Shown here in pieces: positions 10,428 to 24,310 of a stretch of 64,000 bases of DNA. The notes beneath the pieces were generated by a model that ran no database searches, had not been told where the DNA came from, and saw only the letters and a list, made by a program, of their open reading frames with translations. The translations under genes and the position numbers were made by a program. The stretch comes from Teretinema zuelzerae (GTDB lineage Bacteria; Spirochaetota; Spirochaetia; Treponematales; Treponemataceae), in the NCBI RefSeq assembly GCF_021021555.1, contig NZ_JAINWA010000001.1, positions 1,426,001 to 1,490,000 on the forward strand. Reading direction: 5' to 3'. Position 1 is the stretch's first letter, and each line of letters starts with the position of its first letter.

Positions 10428-13400
10428 TTAGAATACGTTGACGCGAACCCCGCCGGTTACGTGGGGAACGATGGAATCGACGCTCACTTCCGACGTATCA
10501 ACATCCGTCGGAATGAACCAGAACTGCGCTTCCGTATAGAATGAGAAAGTTCTGAACGTTGTGCGCTTGGGTATGGTGACGCGGGGGAACTCGAACTGGC
10601 CGAGCACCGCCGAGAGAATTTGCGGTTTGCCGCTCTGCGTATCGGAGAACTGCGAGAAGTTCGCGCCGATTGACGCCGTGGCGGACAGCCACGAGAAATC
10701 GGGGCCGAAGAAATAGTCGAGAGGAACGTAGGCGAGGTTCGCAAGGAGCTTGATGCCCATCACGTTTCCGCCGTAGCGGGGCGGCGTTCCGGTGAACAGG
10801 GCCCGCTGCTCCTCGGTGAACTGGCCGAACTGCGCCTGCAGCTTGACGTTGTCGTCGAAGAAGGTAAGGCCGAGGCCGACGTCGTAGAAGGTCGCGCCCC
10901 AGAAGTGCCAGTCGAAATACAGGCCCTGAATAAAGGTCGGCACCGCGTAGGCGGACTTGTCGCCGGGGCGCAGGCTGAGCATGACGGAGTCGAGCTGTAC
11001 GTCGTCGGAGCTGAGTCCGGAGAACACGAGCTCGTTATTGTAGCGGCCGCCCTCTCCCGGAGAGATAAGCCTGATGGACGGCATCGTCTTGTCGATCTGA
11101 ATGATGGAACGGGTTACGACGACCTCGCCTGAACGCATGGTCGAGCGTACTACCAGGAAGTGGTACCCTTCTACCATATCGCCGGTTTCGATGCGGTATC
11201 TCCAGCGCTTGCCAGACTCCGTAGGCACGAAGGTTTTTCCGTTGTCGAAGCTGATCTCTACCTTCTCGAGCGTCTTCGCCTGGAGGCGCTTGCGCTCTTC
11301 CTTCGTCGTGTCCTTGGCGCGCAGCGCTATCACGTCTTCCTCGGTCAAGGAGTAGCCCGTGGTTCCCATGAGCCAGGGGCGTTCGATCGCGAAGTCTCCC
11401 ATGGCCAGGTTGTCTATCGTTACCCAGGGGCCGGCGGCGTGATACTGTATCGTCTGCACGGAAGATTTGATGATCGCGTCGTTCGCGGCCAGGGCCTGCA
11501 CCTGCAGTTCGTGCATGCCGTCTTCCAGAATCTCGGGGGAAAGGGTGAACTTGAAATACCCGGAAGGATTGAGATCAGTCACCGCGACGTCCGTTCCGTC
11601 TACGTACAGAAGAAGGCTGTTCACCGCGTCCTCCGAAACCACGCGGCCGTAGATATTGAAGATTCCCTGCACCGGCTCCCCGTTCATAGGGTAGAGGAAT
11701 TCGATGCGGTTGCGGTCGGTTCCTCGATACACTTCGAAGTTGCGCGATACGCGGGTGATGTTGTCCGCGCGGTCGAAGCCGCGCACTTCAAGGTTGTAGA
11801 AACCCGGAGGCAGTGCGGAAATGTCGATTCCGCGGGAGATGATGAGCTCGCTTTCGAAGAAGATCTCGGAAAGCGCGGAGGGGATGGTCGGCTGCTTGGG
11901 ATCGATGTTGTTGATCCGGACCGAAAGACGGTTCAGGTGGATGTTGTCCATCGTCTGGCCGGCGATGAACAGCACGTCGCTCGAGCGGCTGCCGTCGAGC
12001 GGGAGCTCGAGGCGGATCGAGGGCGCGGTATTGTCTATATTGATGAGGCTCGAATAGAGCCCGGTTGTTTCGTATTTATCGTACACCTTGACGAACACGA
12101 CATGGGTTCCGTCCTGTATCACGCGGGTATCGAAGCTGTACTCCCACGATTCGGCTCCGTTCGCGAGATTGAAGGTGTTTCCGTTATCGAGGGATACTTC
12201 GACCTTCTCGATTCCGTTCTTGTCGCTCGCGGTGCCGGTGATCTTGATGACTCCCTTGTTCGTGGTTTCGAACGAAGGGGCGAGCACCGCGGCCTTGGGT
12301 TCCTCGAGGGACACCCTGAAATTGCGGACGATTTCTTCGCCGCGCACGCCGTGAATATCTTCCGCGTACAAGGTGATGGTGTGTTCGTTGTCGAGGAGGC
12401 TCTTCAGGGCGACGGGGATCGAATAGCTGTTTACTATCGGCACTTCCGTGAACTCGCCGTTGTCGATGCGGTACCACACCTTGGCGGGCTGGTCGTCGTC
12501 GTAGACGACTCCGGAAATGATGAAGTCTTTTCTGATGATCTCGTTCTCGGCCGGAACGTGAACTTCAACCACGGGGAGGTCGGCCTGGGCGTCGATCTCG
12601 AACAGATACGAGCCTGCGGGCCCGATGTTTCCGGCTTCGTCGGTAAAGCGGAATTCCATGCCGGGTTCGATGGGGCGCTCAAGGGTTCCGATCATGACGT
12701 TCGGCATGGATGTCAGATCGAAGGGGGTCCATTCGGTGCGGTCGTTCTTGCCGCGGTCGCCGGGAGCGCGGTATTCGGCCAGGGCGACCACGCCGTCGTC
12801 CGCAAGGCGGAAGGCGATGCGGGTTTCGCCGTTCACTACGTCTCCCGGTTCGGGAAACACAACTTCCGAGGCCGGCGGTACGGTATCCTTGCGGAAAATC
12901 CGCCACTCGCGGGAAACCCGGCCGACCGCGTCGATCGCGCGAACCATCAATTCGATCTTGCCCTCGCCGAGAGCGCTAATGTCGAGCTCGCCGGAGAACG
13001 GCATTTTCGCAAACGCGGTCCAGGTTTCGCCCCTGTCGAACGAATACTCTACCGCCGATATTCCCCGGCCGTCGGAAGCGGAAACCGTCAACGGCAGGCT
13101 GTTTTGAAGCCACACCGGGCGGGCTGTCGCGTCGACAGAAAGCTCAGGGAGCCCGGAATCCACGATGAATGTGACCGGAGCGGTCTTGAACGTTTCTCCC
13201 GCGGTGTCGGTAATCTCCAGAACCACGCCCTGGTATTCGCCGTCCGCGATTCCGCTCACTGAAACGCGGTTCCCCGAAAGGCTGAGTACAAGGCCCTTTT
13301 CCGCGGTCTTAGACTCTGAAGCGAAGGCGACGGAAGCCGCTGCCCGATCGGGTTTTCCGTTATAGAGGCCGGTTACGGACGCTCCGTCGAAGAGCAGGAT

Positions 13401-15578
13401 GTTGTCGGAAGAGTTGCGGGCGGCAGTTCCCCAAACGAATTGCTCGTCGTCGAAAACTCCCTGGGCGGGAGTCGGACGCACGACGCAAAAAACGCCCGAA
13501 AGGCGTTGTTCTGTCAAATCCTTGAAGGCCACCGTTATATCAAGCATTTTCCACTCTGCGGAAATCAGGGCTTTCAGCGGAATGAGGGCGAATTGGGCGC
13601 CTTCCGGAGTTTTCGATACGGAGGCCTTCGCGGGGACGCTTCCGTTGATCGTCCATGAAACCGAGGTTGCCGGAACAGGCGAATCGATCGCGACGCGGAG
13701 GAAGGAATCCTGCTGCCGTTCCTTGGGCCAGCCCGGGCCGGCGAGCTCGATGAGCATTCCCTGTTCAAAGGGAATATCCGCGGGCAGCACGCGCTCAAGG
13801 GCTATCGAGGCTTCCGCAGTGGATGACGGCTCCTTTCCTTTGGCGGGGATGGTGACCGTTCCTGAAGATGCGAGGGTATCGTCTGTAAATTCAGGACGGG
13901 CGTCCCGCGGGATGCCCAGATTTGTGACGTAAAAAGGAAGAATAGCGGAGGTTTCCCTGCCGTGAACGTCCTGGGCCCGAACCTCCAGACTCAGCGCGCC
14001 GTACGGGAAGTCAGGGGTTATCGGAACGCGCAGGGCGGCTCCGGAAGCGCCCGGCTTAAGAGGAACCGTTACCCAGTCCCGCCCGGTAATCCGCCAGGAA
14101 GCGCCCGACAGGCCGGGCTCCGAGGAAATCGAGCCGGTCAGCGCGTATCCGCTTTCCGGGTGAATCTCCGCGTTCGGATCGTCGATAGCGGCAAGTTCAA
14201 TAACCGGCGCGGGGCCGGCGACCGCGAAAGGAATCGTCGCGACAGGGCTTTTCACCCCGTTCGCATCCTCGGACCAGGCCTCGAGGCTGTGCTTGCCGGT
14301 CGAAAGGCCGTCTATCTCGACGCCGAAGGCGCCGACTGAATCAAGCCGTACGGGTTCCCGTTTGTCCACAGAAACGTAGACGGCTGATATGCCGTCGTCG
14401 TCCTTCGCAGTTCCTCTGAACACCAGCGGACCGTCCAGCAATTCTCCCGGCGCGGGGCTCTCGACGGAAATGGAAGGAATGTCTGCCGCCGAGTCTACAG
14501 GAATCTTCCGTGAAATCGAGGATTTGTTGCCGGCTACGTCCACCGCGTCGATGGTAACGGTCACCGCCTTTTCTTTCGATCCCCTGATGTCGAATTCCTT
14601 GATCCAGTACGGGTTTCCCTTCACCAGCTCGAAGGCTCCGGTTTCCTTGCCCATCGACCAGGAAAGAGACTCGATGCCGTTTATATCCCGGGCGAATCCC
14701 GCTACGGAGAACACCCCGTTGACCGCAAAGCCTTCTTCAGGCGCGATGAACGAAACCTCGGGGCGCGTGTTGTCTACGAAAAAGAGGAAGGTATAAATTC
14801 CGGTCGATCCCTGCAAATCCCGAGCCTTGAACCAACAAACGGCAGGACCGTCGGGTATGTCCCGGGAATCGATGGAGAGCGAGAACGTCCAGGCAAATTC
14901 TTTTTTATTGTATTTCAGGGGAATCTCGGTGAAGGAGTCTCCCTGATCGAGCGAATACGAGAGTTCCTTGATCCCGTTGCCGTCGGCTACGACGCCGGAA
15001 AGGGTGAATTTCCCCGCTACGAGCGATCCCATCGCCAGGTTCTGCACATCGGTTTCAGGCTGGTTTCTGTCCAGATGCCAGCGCACGGTTTGAGACCTGC
15101 CCTGCACCCCGTTCACGTCGACGCCGTACACGGTAATAGTATGCTCGCCCTCGTACATCTGATTCGTATCCAGATAATACGACCAGAACTCCTTGCCCTC
15201 CGCGCGTACCGGCTCGGGATTGTCGTCGAACAGAAGCTCTACATGGCTCACCGCGTCGTCGTCGATGCAGGTGCCCACCACGTTGAGGTTTCCGGGAACT
15301 CGCATGCCGTTCAAGGGGTTGGTGATCCGGGTGACGGGAAGGTCGGACTCAGGATCGACGTACATGTTATAGGGGCCGGCAAGGCCCTGATTTCCCGCAA
15401 GGTCTTCCGCGGTGACGAGTATATTGTACTTTCCGGGTTTGCTTTCGCTGATATCAACGCTTTCAAGCCAGCTGTCCAGAGACTGTACAGGGGTATCGAC
15501 CGTCTCCCTCTTTCCGAGAGCGGTCAGGTTTGCTGACGCAAACAGAATAACCACCAAATACAGAGCCAGCTTCTTCAT
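10428..15578 (-). CDS. Ig-like repeat protein with C-terminal outer-membrane-barrel-like domain
   Basis: The product is 1716 residues. I start it at the ATG at 15578 (MKKLALYL...), preceded by GGGGAAGG, rather than 23 codons upstream, because this places a signal peptide at the N-terminus. There is no lipobox Cys. About fifteen Ig-like beta-sandwich repeats follow, with the same 'DNTRPEVSF' and 'DxNGIxSLSW' signatures as the giant gene but far more diverged from one another. The last 180 or so residues differ: they alternate aromatic and polar residues in short amphipathic strands and end in Phe, as outer-membrane beta-barrels do. A barrel-anchored surface protein is therefore likely, possibly serving as platform or partner for the giant lipoprotein encoded immediately downstream. 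Function is inferred from architecture only. Confidence 0.8.
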   Translation of the reverse strand: MKKLALYLVVILFASANLTALGKRETVDTPVQSLDSWLESVDISESKPGKYNILVTAEDLAGNQGLAGPYNMYVDPESDLPVTRITNPLNGMRVPGNLNVVGTCIDDDAVSHVELLFDDNPEPVRAEGKEFWSYYLDTNQMYEGEHTITVYGVDVNGVQGRSQTVRWHLDRNQPETDVQNLAMGSLVAGKFTLSGVVADGNGIKELSYSLDQGDSFTEIPLKYNKKEFAWTFSLSIDSRDIPDGPAVCWFKARDLQGSTGIYTFLFFVDNTRPEVSFIAPEEGFAVNGVFSVAGFARDINGIESLSWSMGKETGAFELVKGNPYWIKEFDIRGSKEKAVTVTIDAVDVAGNKSSISRKIPVDSAADIPSISVESPAPGELLDGPLVFRGTAKDDDGISAVYVSVDKREPVRLDSVGAFGVEIDGLSTGKHSLEAWSEDANGVKSPVATIPFAVAGPAPVIELAAIDDPNAEIHPESGYALTGSISSEPGLSGASWRITGRDWVTVPLKPGASGAALRVPITPDFPYGALSLEVRAQDVHGRETSAILPFYVTNLGIPRDARPEFTDDTLASSGTVTIPAKGKEPSSTAEASIALERVLPADIPFEQGMLIELAGPGWPKERQQDSFLRVAIDSPVPATSVSWTINGSVPAKASVSKTPEGAQFALIPLKALISAEWKMLDITVAFKDLTEQRLSGVFCVVRPTPAQGVFDDEQFVWGTAARNSSDNILLFDGASVTGLYNGKPDRAAASVAFASESKTAEKGLVLSLSGNRVSVSGIADGEYQGVVLEITDTAGETFKTAPVTFIVDSGLPELSVDATARPVWLQNSLPLTVSASDGRGISAVEYSFDRGETWTAFAKMPFSGELDISALGEGKIELMVRAIDAVGRVSREWRIFRKDTVPPASEVVFPEPGDVVNGETRIAFRLADDGVVALAEYRAPGDRGKNDRTEWTPFDLTSMPNVMIGTLERPIEPGMEFRFTDEAGNIGPAGSYLFEIDAQADLPVVEVHVPAENEIIRKDFIISGVVYDDDQPAKVWYRIDNGEFTEVPIVNSYSIPVALKSLLDNEHTITLYAEDIHGVRGEEIVRNFRVSLEEPKAAVLAPSFETTNKGVIKITGTASDKNGIEKVEVSLDNGNTFNLANGAESWEYSFDTRVIQDGTHVVFVKVYDKYETTGLYSSLINIDNTAPSIRLELPLDGSRSSDVLFIAGQTMDNIHLNRLSVRINNIDPKQPTIPSALSEIFFESELIISRGIDISALPPGFYNLEVRGFDRADNITRVSRNFEVYRGTDRNRIEFLYPMNGEPVQGIFNIYGRVVSEDAVNSLLLYVDGTDVAVTDLNPSGYFKFTLSPEILEDGMHELQVQALAANDAIIKSSVQTIQYHAAGPWVTIDNLAMGDFAIERPWLMGTTGYSLTEEDVIALRAKDTTKEERKRLQAKTLEKVEISFDNGKTFVPTESGKRWRYRIETGDMVEGYHFLVVRSTMRSGEVVVTRSIIQIDKTMPSIRLISPGEGGRYNNELVFSGLSSDDVQLDSVMLSLRPGDKSAYAVPTFIQGLYFDWHFWGATFYDVGLGLTFFDDNVKLQAQFGQFTEEQRALFTGTPPRYGGNVMGIKLLANLAYVPLDYFFGPDFSWLSATASIGANFSQFSDTQSGKPQILSAVLGQFEFPRVTIPKRTTFRTFSFYTEAQFWFIPTDVDTSEVSVDSIVPHVTGGVRVNVF

Positions 15579-15618
15579 ATCAATACCTTCCCCGTGCGAG
15601 ACTATTTCCATTTTCTCC

Positions 15619-15647
15619 ATTATCGGGAAACTTATTGATATTGACAA
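15619..15647 (-). promoter_or_regulatory. Sigma70-type promoter for the Ig-like gene pair
   Basis: The -35 box TTGTCA and -10 box GATAAT are separated by 17 nt on the minus strand, 41 nt before the ATG at 15578. It lies in the 106-nt gap after the cyclase pair, so the surface genes can be transcribed independently of it. Confidence 0.6.
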
Positions 15648-15684: not shown

Positions 15685-17784
15685 TTATCGCTTATTCAGG
15701 TAGTGAACGGCAACAATATCAGACGGATTCAATTGTAAAACTTTTTCAAAATGCGAATTCGCTTCATCCCTGCGCCCCAGGTGCCAGGCGAGTATCCCCT
15801 GTTCAAGGTCTCCCTGGGTCTTCCATTTAAGCTCGCGCAGATCTTCCGGGTCGTTATTGTACGCCTCGAAAACGAATGATTCCCGGCAACGGCCGCGAAT
15901 CCTGTCGACGGGACGGATAAACCAGGCCTGGGGAGAGGGAAGGTCCGCCACAACGCTTTCGCTGATCAAAATACGCGCATGGAAGCGCTTGGTTTCGGAT
16001 TCAAAGAGCACCGCAGAGCGGACTGCCGCGGACAATACAGCGGCTTCCATCCGGCTCTCGTCGCCGAGGATGCCGAGCACCACCGGCCCCGAATCGATGC
16101 CGATGCCGACGGCGACCGGCGGACGGGACACGTTGCGCCGGTTCCAGCCGGCTACCGCGGATTGAATCTGCACGGCGCATGTCAGGGCCGCTTCGCTTCC
16201 CCGCGGGAAAAGAGCGGTGAAGCCGTCCCCGGAATATTTGGCGATAAAGCCGCCGTTAGTCCGGATAATCGGGGCGGCGAGCTCGAAATATTCGTTCAGG
16301 AAGGCGAAGGCCTCCGCGCCGTTCAAGCGCTCGGCTATCGCGGTGAAGGACCGGATATCTGCGGAAAGAACCGCCATCTCCATTTCAACCGCGTCGCCGC
16401 TTTCCGCCTCGAAAAAAGAGGTTCTGCCTAAAAACGACAGAAATTCCTCGGGAACGAAGCGCCGCAGAGCTTTGTTTACGGCCTGCCGCTCGGCGGTGAG
16501 CTGTTTCGCGGCAGTATAGGAAGCGATGTACCGCTCGATGACCATCAAGGCGATGCAATAAAGGCAGAAATTCATCCCGAGATGGCTCAAACTTATCCCC
16601 GAAAGCAGCCACATCGCGACCAGAATGTCGAATATGAAGCACACCAGCGCGGCGGAAAATCCTGCAAGAAGCCAGAACGCGCCCTGCAGGCGATCGATGC
16701 AGGCGCGGATAATCACGCCCATGCCCAAAAGCGCGAAAACAAGGGAGTACACCTGGACCACGATCAAGGCTGCGGAAACCATTCGTGTCGGGAAGAGAAT
16801 AATTACCGCGATATATGCGGCAAAGGGCGCCGAAAACGCGAGAGCCGTTCGTTTCTTCAGCAACTCCGGAAATACGCTTCTGAGAAAACCGGAAAAGGAG
16901 ATCATCGCGAACGGAAAGGTCAGGTAGCCCAAGCGGAATAGCATCGTCCAGGGCAGTCCGGGGACCAGATCGAGCAGCGTAAACGAATCATAGCAGAGGG
17001 CGCGGAATCCCACCGTCCCGCACAGAAGCGCGAACCACAGGAAGGAACGGTCCGTCGGGCGAAAGATGAAAAGCGCGGCAAAGAATAAGCCCATCACTCC
17101 GAGCACGCCGAAAACCAAACCTTCTGTCAATTTCTGCCGGTCTTGCGAACGCCGCAGCAGTTCAGCGTCCCCGACCGCAAGGCCTGCGTTGGTGCCGCCC
17201 ATCCGGTCGTTCCAGTTCGACACGCGGATGACGATTTCAGCCTGCCCGGTCATGCCGGACTGTCCGGACATGCCGGACTGCCCCTCCGCGCCGGCCGCGG
17301 TAAACCGGACAAGGCGGGAATCCCAGAACGGCGTCTCCAGCTCTTCCGAAACTCCCGGCCGCCCGATGGACAGCGCCCGCTTTCCGTTTATGTACACTTC
17401 GCAGGCGGAAAGAACCTGCCCCACGGCCAGCGCGTAGATTCTGCCGCTCTCAAGGCCTGTAATAGTGGCGCCCCATGAAGCCCAGCCGTACGGAGTCGCG
17501 TCCGCAAGGCCCTTCCACGAACCGGGAAACGGCGCGAACGAGGCTTCGGGAAAGTCGGCGACGGAGGAATGAAACTCATGCCACTGAAAATGGAACTCGC
17601 CGCGCAGCCGATGAATGCCGGCCGGATTTTCGGAAATATCGGCGATCCCTGCCGATACGGGCGTTTTGTGCACGATTCGGCCGTCATAGAGCGGGTTCCC
17701 CAGCAAGAGGGCCGCCAGCACCGAAAGAAGGCCGCCGAATACGATAAGGGAGGCCGCGGCCACCGGTTTTTTCACCGTATTCAT
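15685..17784 (-). CDS. 7TMR-DISM receptor with class III cyclase domain, metal-binding (C1-like) half
   Basis: The product is 699 residues: a signal/anchor segment, an extracellular beta-rich 7TMR-DISM-type sensor (about 30-200), seven membrane helices (about 210-420), a linker, a class III nucleotide cyclase domain (about 465-645) and a TPR-like tail. Both metal-binding Asp residues are present: D476 in LSADIRSF and D520 in KYSGDGF. The transition-state Asn and Arg of the VNxAxR motif are replaced by Arg589 and Leu593 (AVRSAVL), and the base-selecting position is Ala582. A homodimer should be inactive or very weak. The start codon overlaps the stop of the upstream paralogue (ATGA), which favours equal synthesis. 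The paralogue has exactly the residues missing here, so I infer a heterodimer. Adenylate rather than guanylate cyclase is the better guess. Confidence 0.85.
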   Translation of the reverse strand: MNTVKKPVAAASLIVFGGLLSVLAALLLGNPLYDGRIVHKTPVSAGIADISENPAGIHRLRGEFHFQWHEFHSSVADFPEASFAPFPGSWKGLADATPYGWASWGATITGLESGRIYALAVGQVLSACEVYINGKRALSIGRPGVSEELETPFWDSRLVRFTAAGAEGQSGMSGQSGMTGQAEIVIRVSNWNDRMGGTNAGLAVGDAELLRRSQDRQKLTEGLVFGVLGVMGLFFAALFIFRPTDRSFLWFALLCGTVGFRALCYDSFTLLDLVPGLPWTMLFRLGYLTFPFAMISFSGFLRSVFPELLKKRTALAFSAPFAAYIAVIILFPTRMVSAALIVVQVYSLVFALLGMGVIIRACIDRLQGAFWLLAGFSAALVCFIFDILVAMWLLSGISLSHLGMNFCLYCIALMVIERYIASYTAAKQLTAERQAVNKALRRFVPEEFLSFLGRTSFFEAESGDAVEMEMAVLSADIRSFTAIAERLNGAEAFAFLNEYFELAAPIIRTNGGFIAKYSGDGFTALFPRGSEAALTCAVQIQSAVAGWNRRNVSRPPVAVGIGIDSGPVVLGILGDESRMEAAVLSAAVRSAVLFESETKRFHARILISESVVADLPSPQAWFIRPVDRIRGRCRESFVFEAYNNDPEDLRELKWKTQGDLEQGILAWHLGRRDEANSHFEKVLQLNPSDIVAVHYLNKR

Positions 17785-19670
17785 AACGCGCCCGCCTCAT
17801 ACACGGAAACCGGCCGAGCGCGCCCGCGCAGTTGTACGGCGCCGCGGAATACAGCCGGAACCGAATCTCCGGCTTCGGAGTACACCTCGGCGGACACGGC
17901 GACGGCGGCGTCGCGCTCTACCGCCCATTCGGAGAGGCGGCTGGCGATATTCACCGCGTCGGAGACTACCGTGCCTTCCATCCGCTCGCGTTCGCCGATA
18001 GTGCCGAGCATCAGCTCTCCCCGGTGGAGGCCGGCATGAAAGGAAAGAGAGCGGATGAACGGCATCGCGCTCTCGCAGTTGACGCGGTCGAAAATGCGGG
18101 CCATCGCGACGGCGCAGCGGAGGGCGCGCTCCCCGCGATCGGGAAACAGAACCATCAAGCCGCCGCTCAGATATTTGTCGACGAAACCGCCCGCGTCCCG
18201 AACAAGGGGATTAATCTTGAGCAGCAGCGCGTTAAAATGATCGAGCAGGGCAAGCCGGTCCGCCTCGGCGGCGGAAAGGCAGTCGAAGCCGAAATGCACG
18301 AACAGGATGCACATTTCTTTTTTAACCGTGTCTCCGAGCGAAACTTCCATCACGCTTTTCTTGTTCAGCAAGCTCAAGAATTCGGTCGGAATAAAGCGTT
18401 TAAGGGACTCGTTCATCAGCGCGAGTTCTCCCGAGAGCTGCTCCTCCCGCGAGAAGGCTCCCGTCATCCGGCTCACCACCATCAAGCCCATCGCGAAAAT
18501 AATGCCGAAAACGCCGTAATGGGCAAGAAACACCCCTTCGAACACGCGGTTAGCCAGCAGAATGTCCCGCAACACGATGCCGAAGAAAAAGAGAAACCCG
18601 GACATGAAGATGAGCGATCCCTCAAGCCTCAAGCGAATTGCCCGGATCATTGTCCGGATTATCCACAACGCGCTTATAATAGAAAAAACTTGAAAAAACG
18701 AAAGGACGCCGGTCGCCGCGGACACCGGCAAAACGGCTGAAACCGCGCCGTACAGGAGGGAAACGGAGACCACCAGGGCAAAGACTTTCCGGCCGACCAA
18801 AAAGGGATAGAGGGAGCGGACAAAGGCCGCGAAGCCCGCGAGTCCCAGGGCGAACGTCATATATCCCAAACGGAAGAGAACCTCGTGCGGCAGCGAGGGA
18901 ACAAAATCAAGCAGAAAAAACTCGTCGTAGCAGGATATTCTGAGCGCGAATAAAAACGACAAAAGCCCCAGCCATAGCGAAGCCTTCTCCTTCGGGCTAT
19001 ACAGAAAAAGGGCGATAAAGTATACGCCCATGGCCAGCAGCGCGCCGAAGGGGATTATCAGGAACAGGCGGTGCAGGGACCGCTGCCGGGAAACCTCCGT
19101 CAGTCCGCCGAACCGTATCGGAAGGGTTCCGCCGGGGTAGATATCGTAAAAATTGGAAAGATGCATGACCAGCACGACCCCGGTCCGCCCCGCGCCGCCT
19201 GAATCCCCGCTTCCCGGAAGCGGCACCAGGGCGGTCGCCCAGCGCACCCGCTCGGAAGCCCCGTTGTTCGCAGGATATCCTTGCGAGTAGAGTTCCGCCC
19301 CGTCGATATAATACCGCACGGCGCTGCTGTAGGCCGGAAAGCGGAACGCGTATTCGGCGTGCGGATCCAATCCCTCGATGGCCACCGCGTACGAAGCATA
19401 CCCGTACCTCGGGCGACCGTCCTGATACTGGGACCAGGAACCCGGAAACCGCTCGTAGCGATCGAAGTTTCCGCTTTTCACCGAAGGATACACGAACTGG
19501 CCGGGCCAATACGCCCAGGAACCGGATAATTCGCAGACTCCTGTACTTCCCTTCAGATCGATAGCCCCGCGATATACTTCGACCTTCCCGGAACCGTCTT
19601 TTTGAAGAGAACAGGCGCTGAGGAGAGAAAGGGCCGCGGTGAACCAAAGAAAAAAGGAAGGGGGACGCAC
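17781..19670 (-). CDS. 7TMR-DISM receptor lipoprotein with class III cyclase domain, C2-like half
   Basis: The product is 629 residues and starts with GTG; this start gives a proper lipoprotein signal (LSAC, Cys20). A 7TMR-DISM extracellular sensor, seven membrane helices (about 205-410) and a cyclase homology domain (about 450-629) follow. Both metal Asp residues are lost: the first position is His459 (LFVHFGF) and the second is Gly503 (KYLSGGL). The transition-state pair is intact in VNIASRL (N574, R578), and the base-binding positions are K499 and T567, a Lys/Thr pairing seen in class IIIb adenylate cyclases. Alone it cannot bind catalytic metals. It is the first gene of the operon, coupled by ATGA to its C1-like partner. 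The promoter's -10 box lies 7 nt before the GTG, so the mRNA is probably leaderless. Confidence 0.85.
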   Translation of the reverse strand: MRPPSFFLWFTAALSLLSACSLQKDGSGKVEVYRGAIDLKGSTGVCELSGSWAYWPGQFVYPSVKSGNFDRYERFPGSWSQYQDGRPRYGYASYAVAIEGLDPHAEYAFRFPAYSSAVRYYIDGAELYSQGYPANNGASERVRWATALVPLPGSGDSGGAGRTGVVLVMHLSNFYDIYPGGTLPIRFGGLTEVSRQRSLHRLFLIIPFGALLAMGVYFIALFLYSPKEKASLWLGLLSFLFALRISCYDEFFLLDFVPSLPHEVLFRLGYMTFALGLAGFAAFVRSLYPFLVGRKVFALVVSVSLLYGAVSAVLPVSAATGVLSFFQVFSIISALWIIRTMIRAIRLRLEGSLIFMSGFLFFFGIVLRDILLANRVFEGVFLAHYGVFGIIFAMGLMVVSRMTGAFSREEQLSGELALMNESLKRFIPTEFLSLLNKKSVMEVSLGDTVKKEMCILFVHFGFDCLSAAEADRLALLDHFNALLLKINPLVRDAGGFVDKYLSGGLMVLFPDRGERALRCAVAMARIFDRVNCESAMPFIRSLSFHAGLHRGELMLGTIGERERMEGTVVSDAVNIASRLSEWAVERDAAVAVSAEVYSEAGDSVPAVFRGAVQLRGRARPVSVYEAGAL

Positions 19671-23227: not shown

Positions 23228-24310
23228 TTATTCCTGCAAGTGCTGGAAGAGCGAGTCGTTCAAGTAGAAGTTCTCCTTCCCAATCTTGTGCTTTGAAACA
23301 AGTCCAATCTCTACAAGATCATCGAGGTACTTTGAGGCTGTTTTTCGGGTAACGCCTAAATCGCGAACAAGGTAGTCGATCTTCGTGTAGGGATGCCGAA
23401 ACAGGTTGTTTAACAGCTCGTGGCTGTACATCTTTGGATGTTCAGTCTTGAGCTTTTGCTTGTAGTCCTGCATGAGTTTTTTTATTCCGTGAATCAAGAG
23501 AGTTGTCTGCCGCGATGTTTGTTCAACGCCGCCTATCATGTAAAGAAGCCAGGGCTCCCAGTTTCGCGTATCACGGACATCCTGTAAAAGGCGATAGTAT
23601 TCGACCTTCGACTGATTGATGTAGCGTGAAAGATAGAGGATAGGGCTTCCCAGGAGACCCTCTTTGACAAGATAGAGGATGTTGAGGACCCGCCCGGTGC
23701 GTCCGTTGCCGTCGTAAAAGGGATGGATGCTTTCGATCTGGTGATGGATGAGCGCCATCTTGGTCAGGGCGTCAAAGTCCGCGAGTTCGTTCCGATTAAG
23801 GAACTCTTCGAGGTTGCTCATGAGGAGGAGGATGTCGTCGGGGTGTTGAGGAGGCGTGTACACTGTAGCACCAGTCGCCTCGTTTTTGAGTTCGGTTCCC
23901 GGTAGCTTACGAAACCCGGCTCGATTCTCCTCGATGATAGATTGGACTTCGAGAATATCTCTCAAGGTGATGAGCCCTGTCGCTGTAACCCGATCGCAGG
24001 TCCTTTGCAAGGCGTGTGCGTAGGCGTGGACTTCCTTTGCGGCTATGGTTTGATACTTGTGTTCAAAGTTGTCGGACTGATAGAGATCGTCTTGCGTCGT
24101 AATGATGTTTTCTATTGCCGAACTATCCTTCGCTTCTTGCAGAGATAACGTGTTGATAAGAATATCTTGATTGGGCATCGATTCTGCGGTTGCCTTCAGT
24201 TCGGCAAGGGCTTGGTGAGCCGTCGCCAGTTTCTTGAGAACCGCCTTGGTTTCGATATCGCCGACTTGTTCGAGCCTTTCCGGAAAAAATGACGCGTTCA
24301 GTCTTCCCAT
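23228..24310 (-). CDS. Fic family protein (AMP-transferase type) with C-terminal winged helix
   Basis: The product is 360 residues. The Fic motif HPFYDGNGRTGR (about residues 196-207) is complete, including the catalytic His and the nucleotide-binding Asn and Arg residues. An inhibitory motif of the S/TxxxE(G/N) type (SSAIEN, about residue 63) precedes it, which makes this a self-inhibited class II Fic protein. The last 80 or so residues look like a winged helix (DYLVRDLGVTRKTASKYLDDL). Such proteins attach AMP to target proteins; the target is unknown. The gene appears less GC-rich than its neighbours, consistent with acquisition. Three related motifs flank its promoter, suggesting autoregulation through the winged helix. 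It converges with the upstream MCP gene. Confidence 0.88.
   Translation of the reverse strand: MGRLNASFFPERLEQVGDIETKAVLKKLATAHQALAELKATAESMPNQDILINTLSLQEAKDSSAIENIITTQDDLYQSDNFEHKYQTIAAKEVHAYAHALQRTCDRVTATGLITLRDILEVQSIIEENRAGFRKLPGTELKNEATGATVYTPPQHPDDILLLMSNLEEFLNRNELADFDALTKMALIHHQIESIHPFYDGNGRTGRVLNILYLVKEGLLGSPILYLSRYINQSKVEYYRLLQDVRDTRNWEPWLLYMIGGVEQTSRQTTLLIHGIKKLMQDYKQKLKTEHPKMYSHELLNNLFRHPYTKIDYLVRDLGVTRKTASKYLDDLVEIGLVSKHKIGKENFYLNDSLFQHLQE

Follow-up and report, generated by a model that had tools for sequence, protein, structure and literature searches.

A putative heterodimeric receptor adenylyl cyclase encoded by two overlapping genes in Treponemataceae

Can two bacterial genes divide a single cyclase active site between them? 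The question is raised by a locus of Teretinema zuelzerae within a stretch of 64,000 nucleotides (contig NZ_JAINWA010000001.1, positions 1,426,001 to 1,490,000; hereafter the window, whose numbering is used throughout), in which two overlapping genes each encode a receptor with seven membrane helices (7TM) and a class III cyclase domain. A first-pass annotation of this sequence had read the two products as an obligate pair, organized like the C1 and C2 domains of mammalian adenylyl cyclases. Our analysis supports that reading through reciprocal loss of catalytic residues, the lack of any homodimer-capable member among related pairs, and profiles of the two partners that match opposite mammalian halves. 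Very probably, the two products form an obligate heterodimeric receptor adenylyl cyclase in which one site is active and the other is a pseudo-site. The locus is laid out as follows.

17781..19670, minus strand: first gene, GTG start, 629 amino acids, C2-like half; N-terminal beta domain, 7TM region and class III cyclase domain without the metal-binding aspartates
15685..17784, minus strand: second gene, ATG start, 699 amino acids, C1-like half; N-terminal beta domain, 7TM region, class III cyclase domain without the Asn/Arg pair, and a helical TPR-like tail
17781..17784, minus strand: ATGA overlap, comprising the start of the second gene and the stop of the first

The reading frames and the overlap (17784-17781) agree with the coordinates first annotated, and the overlap would be expected to couple translation of the two genes.

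Each homologue was scored at six columns, in the order first metal Asp, base Lys, second metal Asp, base Asp/Thr, Asn and Arg. The window pair reads HKGTNR in the first gene and DKDARL in the second. Lys and Thr form a known ATP-type base-recognition pair. The diagnostic residues are listed below.

18294..18296, minus strand: H459 in place of the first metal Asp, first protein
18174..18176, minus strand: K499, base-recognition Lys kept, first protein
18162..18164, minus strand: G503 in place of the second metal Asp, first protein
17970..17972, minus strand: T567, base-recognition Thr kept, first protein
17949..17951, minus strand: N574, transition-state Asn kept, first protein
17937..17939, minus strand: R578, transition-state Arg kept, first protein
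16357..16359, minus strand: D476, first metal Asp kept, second protein
16225..16227, minus strand: D520, second metal Asp kept, second protein
16039..16041, minus strand: A582 in place of the base-recognition Thr, second protein
16018..16020, minus strand: R589 in place of the transition-state Asn, second protein
16006..16008, minus strand: L593 in place of the transition-state Arg, second protein

Alignments placed all of these residues, each of them correctly quoted in the first-pass annotation, at class III catalytic columns. The complete catalytic set (Asp, Asp, Asn and Arg), which homodimeric members carry in one polypeptide, is found in neither protein and is complete only across the pair.

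The same division holds across the family. Homologues were gathered with an alignment query (a single-sequence scan of the genome contigs gave no match), and 49 tandem pairs were read, all in Treponemataceae. The annotation had named a member with all catalytic residues as the finding that would speak against an obligate pair; none of the 49 pairs contains such a homodimer-capable member. Losses are reciprocal in 39 pairs, the window pair and 38 others, each with exactly one complete composite site: metals from one partner, base recognition and Asn/Arg from the other, and a degenerate second site. The C2-like gene comes first in 37 of these, with first genes reading [HSKQNT]-[KQ]-[EGDRS]-T-N-R and second genes D-[KR]-D-[IVAT]-x-x, and the order is swapped in two pairs of genus g3 (DKDVRK then QNSTNR; DKDVRE then QNRANR). 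Across the 39 complete pairs, both aspartates are kept in every C1-like partner and Asn/Arg in every C2-like partner, while the Thr and Lys of the composite site are kept in 38 and 36 pairs, respectively. By contrast, at the mirror site the entropy of the metal positions is close to the domain median and that of the Asn/Arg positions exceeds it, with 5-12 different residues at each of these pseudo-site positions. The pattern therefore goes beyond chance, because four composite-site residues are invariant while their pseudo-site counterparts vary at or above the domain median; at the level of sequence, one two-chain site appears protected and the other freed from constraint. Consistently, C1-like partners preserve the D-I-R-x-F-T phosphate loop almost unchanged, whereas in C2-like partners it has decayed. 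The position matching mammalian K1065 is basic in nearly all C2-like members and scattered in C1-like ones, which is supportive, although the alignment is locally loose.

Among unpaired homologues, which come from spirochaetes, Bacteroidota, Thiotrichaceae and cyanobacteria, the intact set DKDTNR is nearly universal; it is replaced by DKDTSR in L196, by DKDSNR in L087 and by other sets in a handful of unusual proteins, including L112, L280 and L279. L112 (2307-5789), from the Teretinema zuelzerae genome itself, is a 1161-amino-acid protein with a DISM-like N-terminus and the unusual set DRDGSR. L280 (2701-4713, genome G023; KKHTDQ) and L279 (518-2491, genome G239; KKNYDK) are degenerate DISM cyclases with no adjoining partner seen, the G239 contig being just 3.7 kb long. 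No adjacent pairs outside Treponemataceae appeared among the matches listed in order-wide (E<=1e-60) and phylum-wide (1e-50) samples, from which more divergent pairs could escape.

Do the two halves resemble their mammalian counterparts beyond the catalytic residues? Full-length profiles of the first-gene and second-gene proteins were run against all PDB chains, an approach independent of the choice of catalytic columns. The first-gene profile retrieved AC9 C2 (1145-1237), the beta subunit of soluble guanylate cyclase (sGC) and IIC2, together with one weak match to AC8 C1. The second-gene profile retrieved C1 of AC5, AC8 and AC9 (390-524), and placed sGC alpha ahead of sGC beta. Each half thus resembles the matching mammalian half, in line with the C1/C2 analogy first drawn for this locus.

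To place the split in evolution, trees were built with the active-site columns removed and with no mammalian sequence among the rows, and approximately unbiased (AU) tests were run on a 30-row set. The pairs fell into two groups. Lineage A comprises the window's genus, the T. vincentii genus (g32) and g33, and is closest to unpaired, intact cyclases that come from a different spirochaete family (G036, G039 and G030); lineage B comprises T. bryantii (g3), T. lecithinolyticum (g9), G043, G044 and G276. The two halves are sisters in lineage B, and in lineage A they group together with intact singles. Forcing all C2-like halves into one clade cost 82 log units (AU p=1.0e-4) and forcing all C1-like halves cost 75 (AU p=1.4e-4), whereas a single group of all pairs was not rejected (AU p=0.096). 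Because the AU test rejects a single clade of either half, the split most likely arose at least twice within Treponemataceae, with the same main gene order. Gene conversion between partners, erasing one older split, is a possible alternative to two origins.

Several observations weigh against an obligate heterodimer. First, some losses are partial: one Asp is retained in five C2-like members, and the Arg in two C1-like members. Active non-canonical class III cyclases exist, some mycobacterial enzymes among them, so each protein might work alone or as a homodimer through a non-canonical mechanism in which another residue replaces the missing Asp or Asn/Arg, a scheme to which the Asp retained in those five members would also lend itself. 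A replacement catalyst should be conserved, but the substitutes are not: the first metal position shows six kinds of residue, the Asn position seven and the Arg position of the C1-like partner twelve. We therefore regard this explanation as very unlikely.

Second, a complete site is missing from 10 of the 49 pairs. One, G009, belongs to the window's genus; the other nine, all in genus g3, are G216, whose gene order is swapped, and eight more. Such cases indicate that a pair can persist without catalysis. The dead g3 pairs carry codes such as QKSMNA/GTQTEK ([EQ]K[SG]MNA / GTQTEK and similar). Both genes are still open and adjacent at these loci (L265-L271 and L278; genomes such as G160, G126, G100, G153, G247, G211, G261 and G222), apparently a receptor pair retained in a catalytically dead form. 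Those sampled cluster on the tree with the swapped-order pairs and would therefore be decayed descendants rather than an alternative scheme. In the G009 pair (L078 3042-4973 and L079 2-514; RRDATQ / (..)ARR), the frames are open; the first gene lacks Asn and Arg, the second is a fragment with the metal positions outside it, and conserved flanking genes support the two contigs as neighbours. Incomplete pairs of this kind, eight of them clearly dead in one sublineage, together with the poor score of the first protein against the Pfam cyclase model, would suit a reading in which both proteins are pseudocyclases that signal otherwise, perhaps by scaffolding or by acting as decoys for further cyclases, while their residues drift. 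Yet one composite site is invariant in 39 pairs with the mirror-site residues free to vary, and neutral drift offers no protection to four positions divided between two genes, let alone on two occasions. A pair of pseudocyclases is accordingly improbable, if somewhat less so than non-canonical catalysis.

Third, the genome encodes a dozen further cyclase domains, intact DISM-7TM cyclases among them, and other partners are conceivable for either protein. The two products might then pair with and modulate other intact cyclases of the cell instead of each other. Such an arrangement would leave the reciprocal complementarity as an unexplained coincidence, and it sits poorly with an adjacency that is kept family-wide, even where gene order is swapped, and with the joint retention of both partners. 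The ATGA overlap is exact in 19 of the 31 orthologous pairs measured; in the rest the genes lie within a few tens of bases of each other once uncertainty in the start codons is allowed for. We give pairing with other cyclases very little credence.

The occurrence of both halves in one open reading frame (ORF) in two genomes, G066 (1314 amino acids) and G044 (1272 amino acids), also speaks for partnership within the pair, with a reservation that counts on the opposite side: a single base distinguishes each ORF from the ordinary overlap, and either may reflect a sequence error. At the G066 junction (L150 ~4900), a single base in an A7/G4 run separates the ORF from the usual ATGA overlap; at the G044 junction (L261 ~3915), there is an extra G in ATGGA. 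In both, deleting one base would restore the overlap. The G066 ORF is therefore no clean proof of association, and we treat both as candidate fusions only, which single-base error fits equally well. Separately, two different species carry frameshifts in the second gene, at poly-T stretches close to the first membrane helices (G053, L135 3380-3632; G061, L136 4234-4450), possibly through sequence error, decay or slippage-based switching; errors or real slippage thus do occur in the locus of the pair.

What kind of receptors are the two proteins? Pfam 7TMR-DISM_7TM (PF07695) matches both (E 4e-18 for the first, 7e-21 for the second). Pfam Guanylate_cyc (PF00211) scores 23.6 bits in the first, a weak match, and 35.3 bits in the second, both above the curated cut-off of 21.9. 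AlphaFold2 models of the single chains, computed with alignment rows from the window and the genome contigs, reached a mean predicted local distance difference test (pLDDT) score of 87.7 for the first protein and 90.0 for the second, and show an N-terminal helix, a beta-rich domain and seven long helices leading into a signalling helix and a cyclase fold. By Foldseek against class III structures (E 5e-12 and 8e-14), both cyclase domains fall among bacterial class III cyclases. The domains are as follows.

19104..19583, minus strand: first protein, N-terminal beta domain, about residues 30-189, presumed periplasmic sensor (AlphaFold2 model, weak beta-glucuronidase match)
18399..19103, minus strand: first protein, seven membrane helices and signalling helix, about residues 190-424 (PF07695, model)
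17793..18332, minus strand: first protein, class III cyclase domain, C2-like, about residues 447-626 (Pfam, alignment, model, Foldseek, profile)
17167..17682, minus strand: second protein, N-terminal beta domain, about residues 35-206 (AlphaFold2 model)
16465..17166, minus strand: second protein, seven membrane helices and signalling helix, about residues 207-440 (PF07695, model)
15862..16395, minus strand: second protein, class III cyclase domain, C1-like, about residues 464-641 (Pfam, alignment, model, Foldseek, profile)

The first-pass annotation had assigned a 7TMR-DISM sensor and seven helices to both products. The 7TM part stands, from Pfam and the models. Pfam covers the 7TM part only of the DISM family and gave no DISMED match in either protein; the assignment of the N-terminal beta domain comes from the models, together with a weak beta-glucuronidase match of the first-gene profile.

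In the window's genus the neighbours of the pair are a divergent short-chain dehydrogenase gene on one side and, downstream, a gene whose product is a long protein of Ig-like repeats; relatives have both genes conserved. The repeat protein, a 1739-amino-acid Big_7 protein (10428-15647), is encoded directly downstream of the pair at a position conserved in the genus, and is a possible operon partner. The Teretinema zuelzerae genome holds 14 class III domains in total and 13 cyclic-nucleotide-binding domains, which are possible receivers of the product of the pair. Elsewhere in the window, positions 23228-24310 encode a Fic-family protein with a SoFic-like C-terminal domain.

How would an obligate heterodimer work? 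Each subunit would combine a beta-domain sensor, presumed to be periplasmic, with seven membrane helices and a signalling helix, and the two cyclase domains would pair head to tail to build one complete active site. The C1-like product of the second gene would supply the two metal aspartates and the phosphate loop, binding metals and phosphates; the C2-like product of the first gene would supply adenine recognition (Lys/Thr) and the transition-state Asn/Arg. The symmetry mate of this active site would be dead and may serve as a regulatory pocket. A signal sensed by one periplasmic domain, or by both, would shift the pair into a new orientation and so alter the output of cyclic AMP (cAMP). We infer physical heterodimerisation, activity of the mixture, cAMP as the product and control by ligands.

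The family offers natural stages of such a system: an intact single gene, a reciprocally split pair, a swapped order, a candidate fusion and a dead pair. With two apparently separate origins, lineages can be compared to ask what makes a cell abandon one active site of the two, and whether an enzyme with two sensors integrates two signals. Tentatively, and with confidence nearly balanced by doubt, we propose that bacteria independently evolved the mammalian-style C1/C2 division at least twice in one family, through duplication of a 7TM receptor cyclase and loss of opposite halves, and that some lineages then fused the genes, replaying the proposed origin of the eukaryotic membrane adenylyl cyclases.

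How does the pair compare with known cyclases? Unpaired spirochaete 7TMR-DISM class III cyclases share its architecture, and would be homodimer-capable because a single gene carries all six residues (DKDTNR). Rv1625c/Cya of Mycobacterium tuberculosis is likewise a bacterial membrane class III cyclase with sites between two subunits, but is a homodimer from one gene, with six helices and two identical sites (PMC9433096). A specialist review describes bacterial class III cyclases as homodimerising and fused ones as unknown (PMC9552081); we found no description of a bacterial reciprocal heterodimer cyclase in the open-access literature, subscription papers lying outside the search. The fungal rhodopsin guanylyl cyclase RGC/NeoR resembles the proposed pair in being an obligate heterodimer whose two subunits are membrane receptors carrying class III domains, although it is light-driven; its obligation comes from elsewhere, because RGC1 and RGC2 retain all catalytic residues (PMC8815786).

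Heterodimers with reciprocal loss are already known from sGC and the mammalian membrane cyclases (PMC3591389). sGC is an obligate alpha/beta heterodimer in which alpha gives the aspartates and beta the C2-type Arg and Lys, with a pseudo-site lacking key residues (PMC3591389). It shares with the pair two separate homologous subunits and a reciprocal division, and differs in being a soluble animal enzyme with a haem sensor and GTP as substrate. Mammalian transmembrane adenylyl cyclases likewise take the metal aspartates from one domain and base recognition and Asn/Arg from the other, leaving one active and one degenerate site, and have two multi-helix membrane units per enzyme. The bacterial pair differs from them in its two genes (one ORF in two genomes), usually with the C2-like gene first, in having seven instead of six helices per unit, in its large presumed periplasmic sensors and probably in at least two separate bacterial origins. 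The pair could also serve as a small bacterial model for the mammalian arrangement. Taken together, the evidence lends good support to a C1/C2 logic that would operate in bacteria through two genes encoding 7TM receptors, a design common across a single family and a new form of a known principle.

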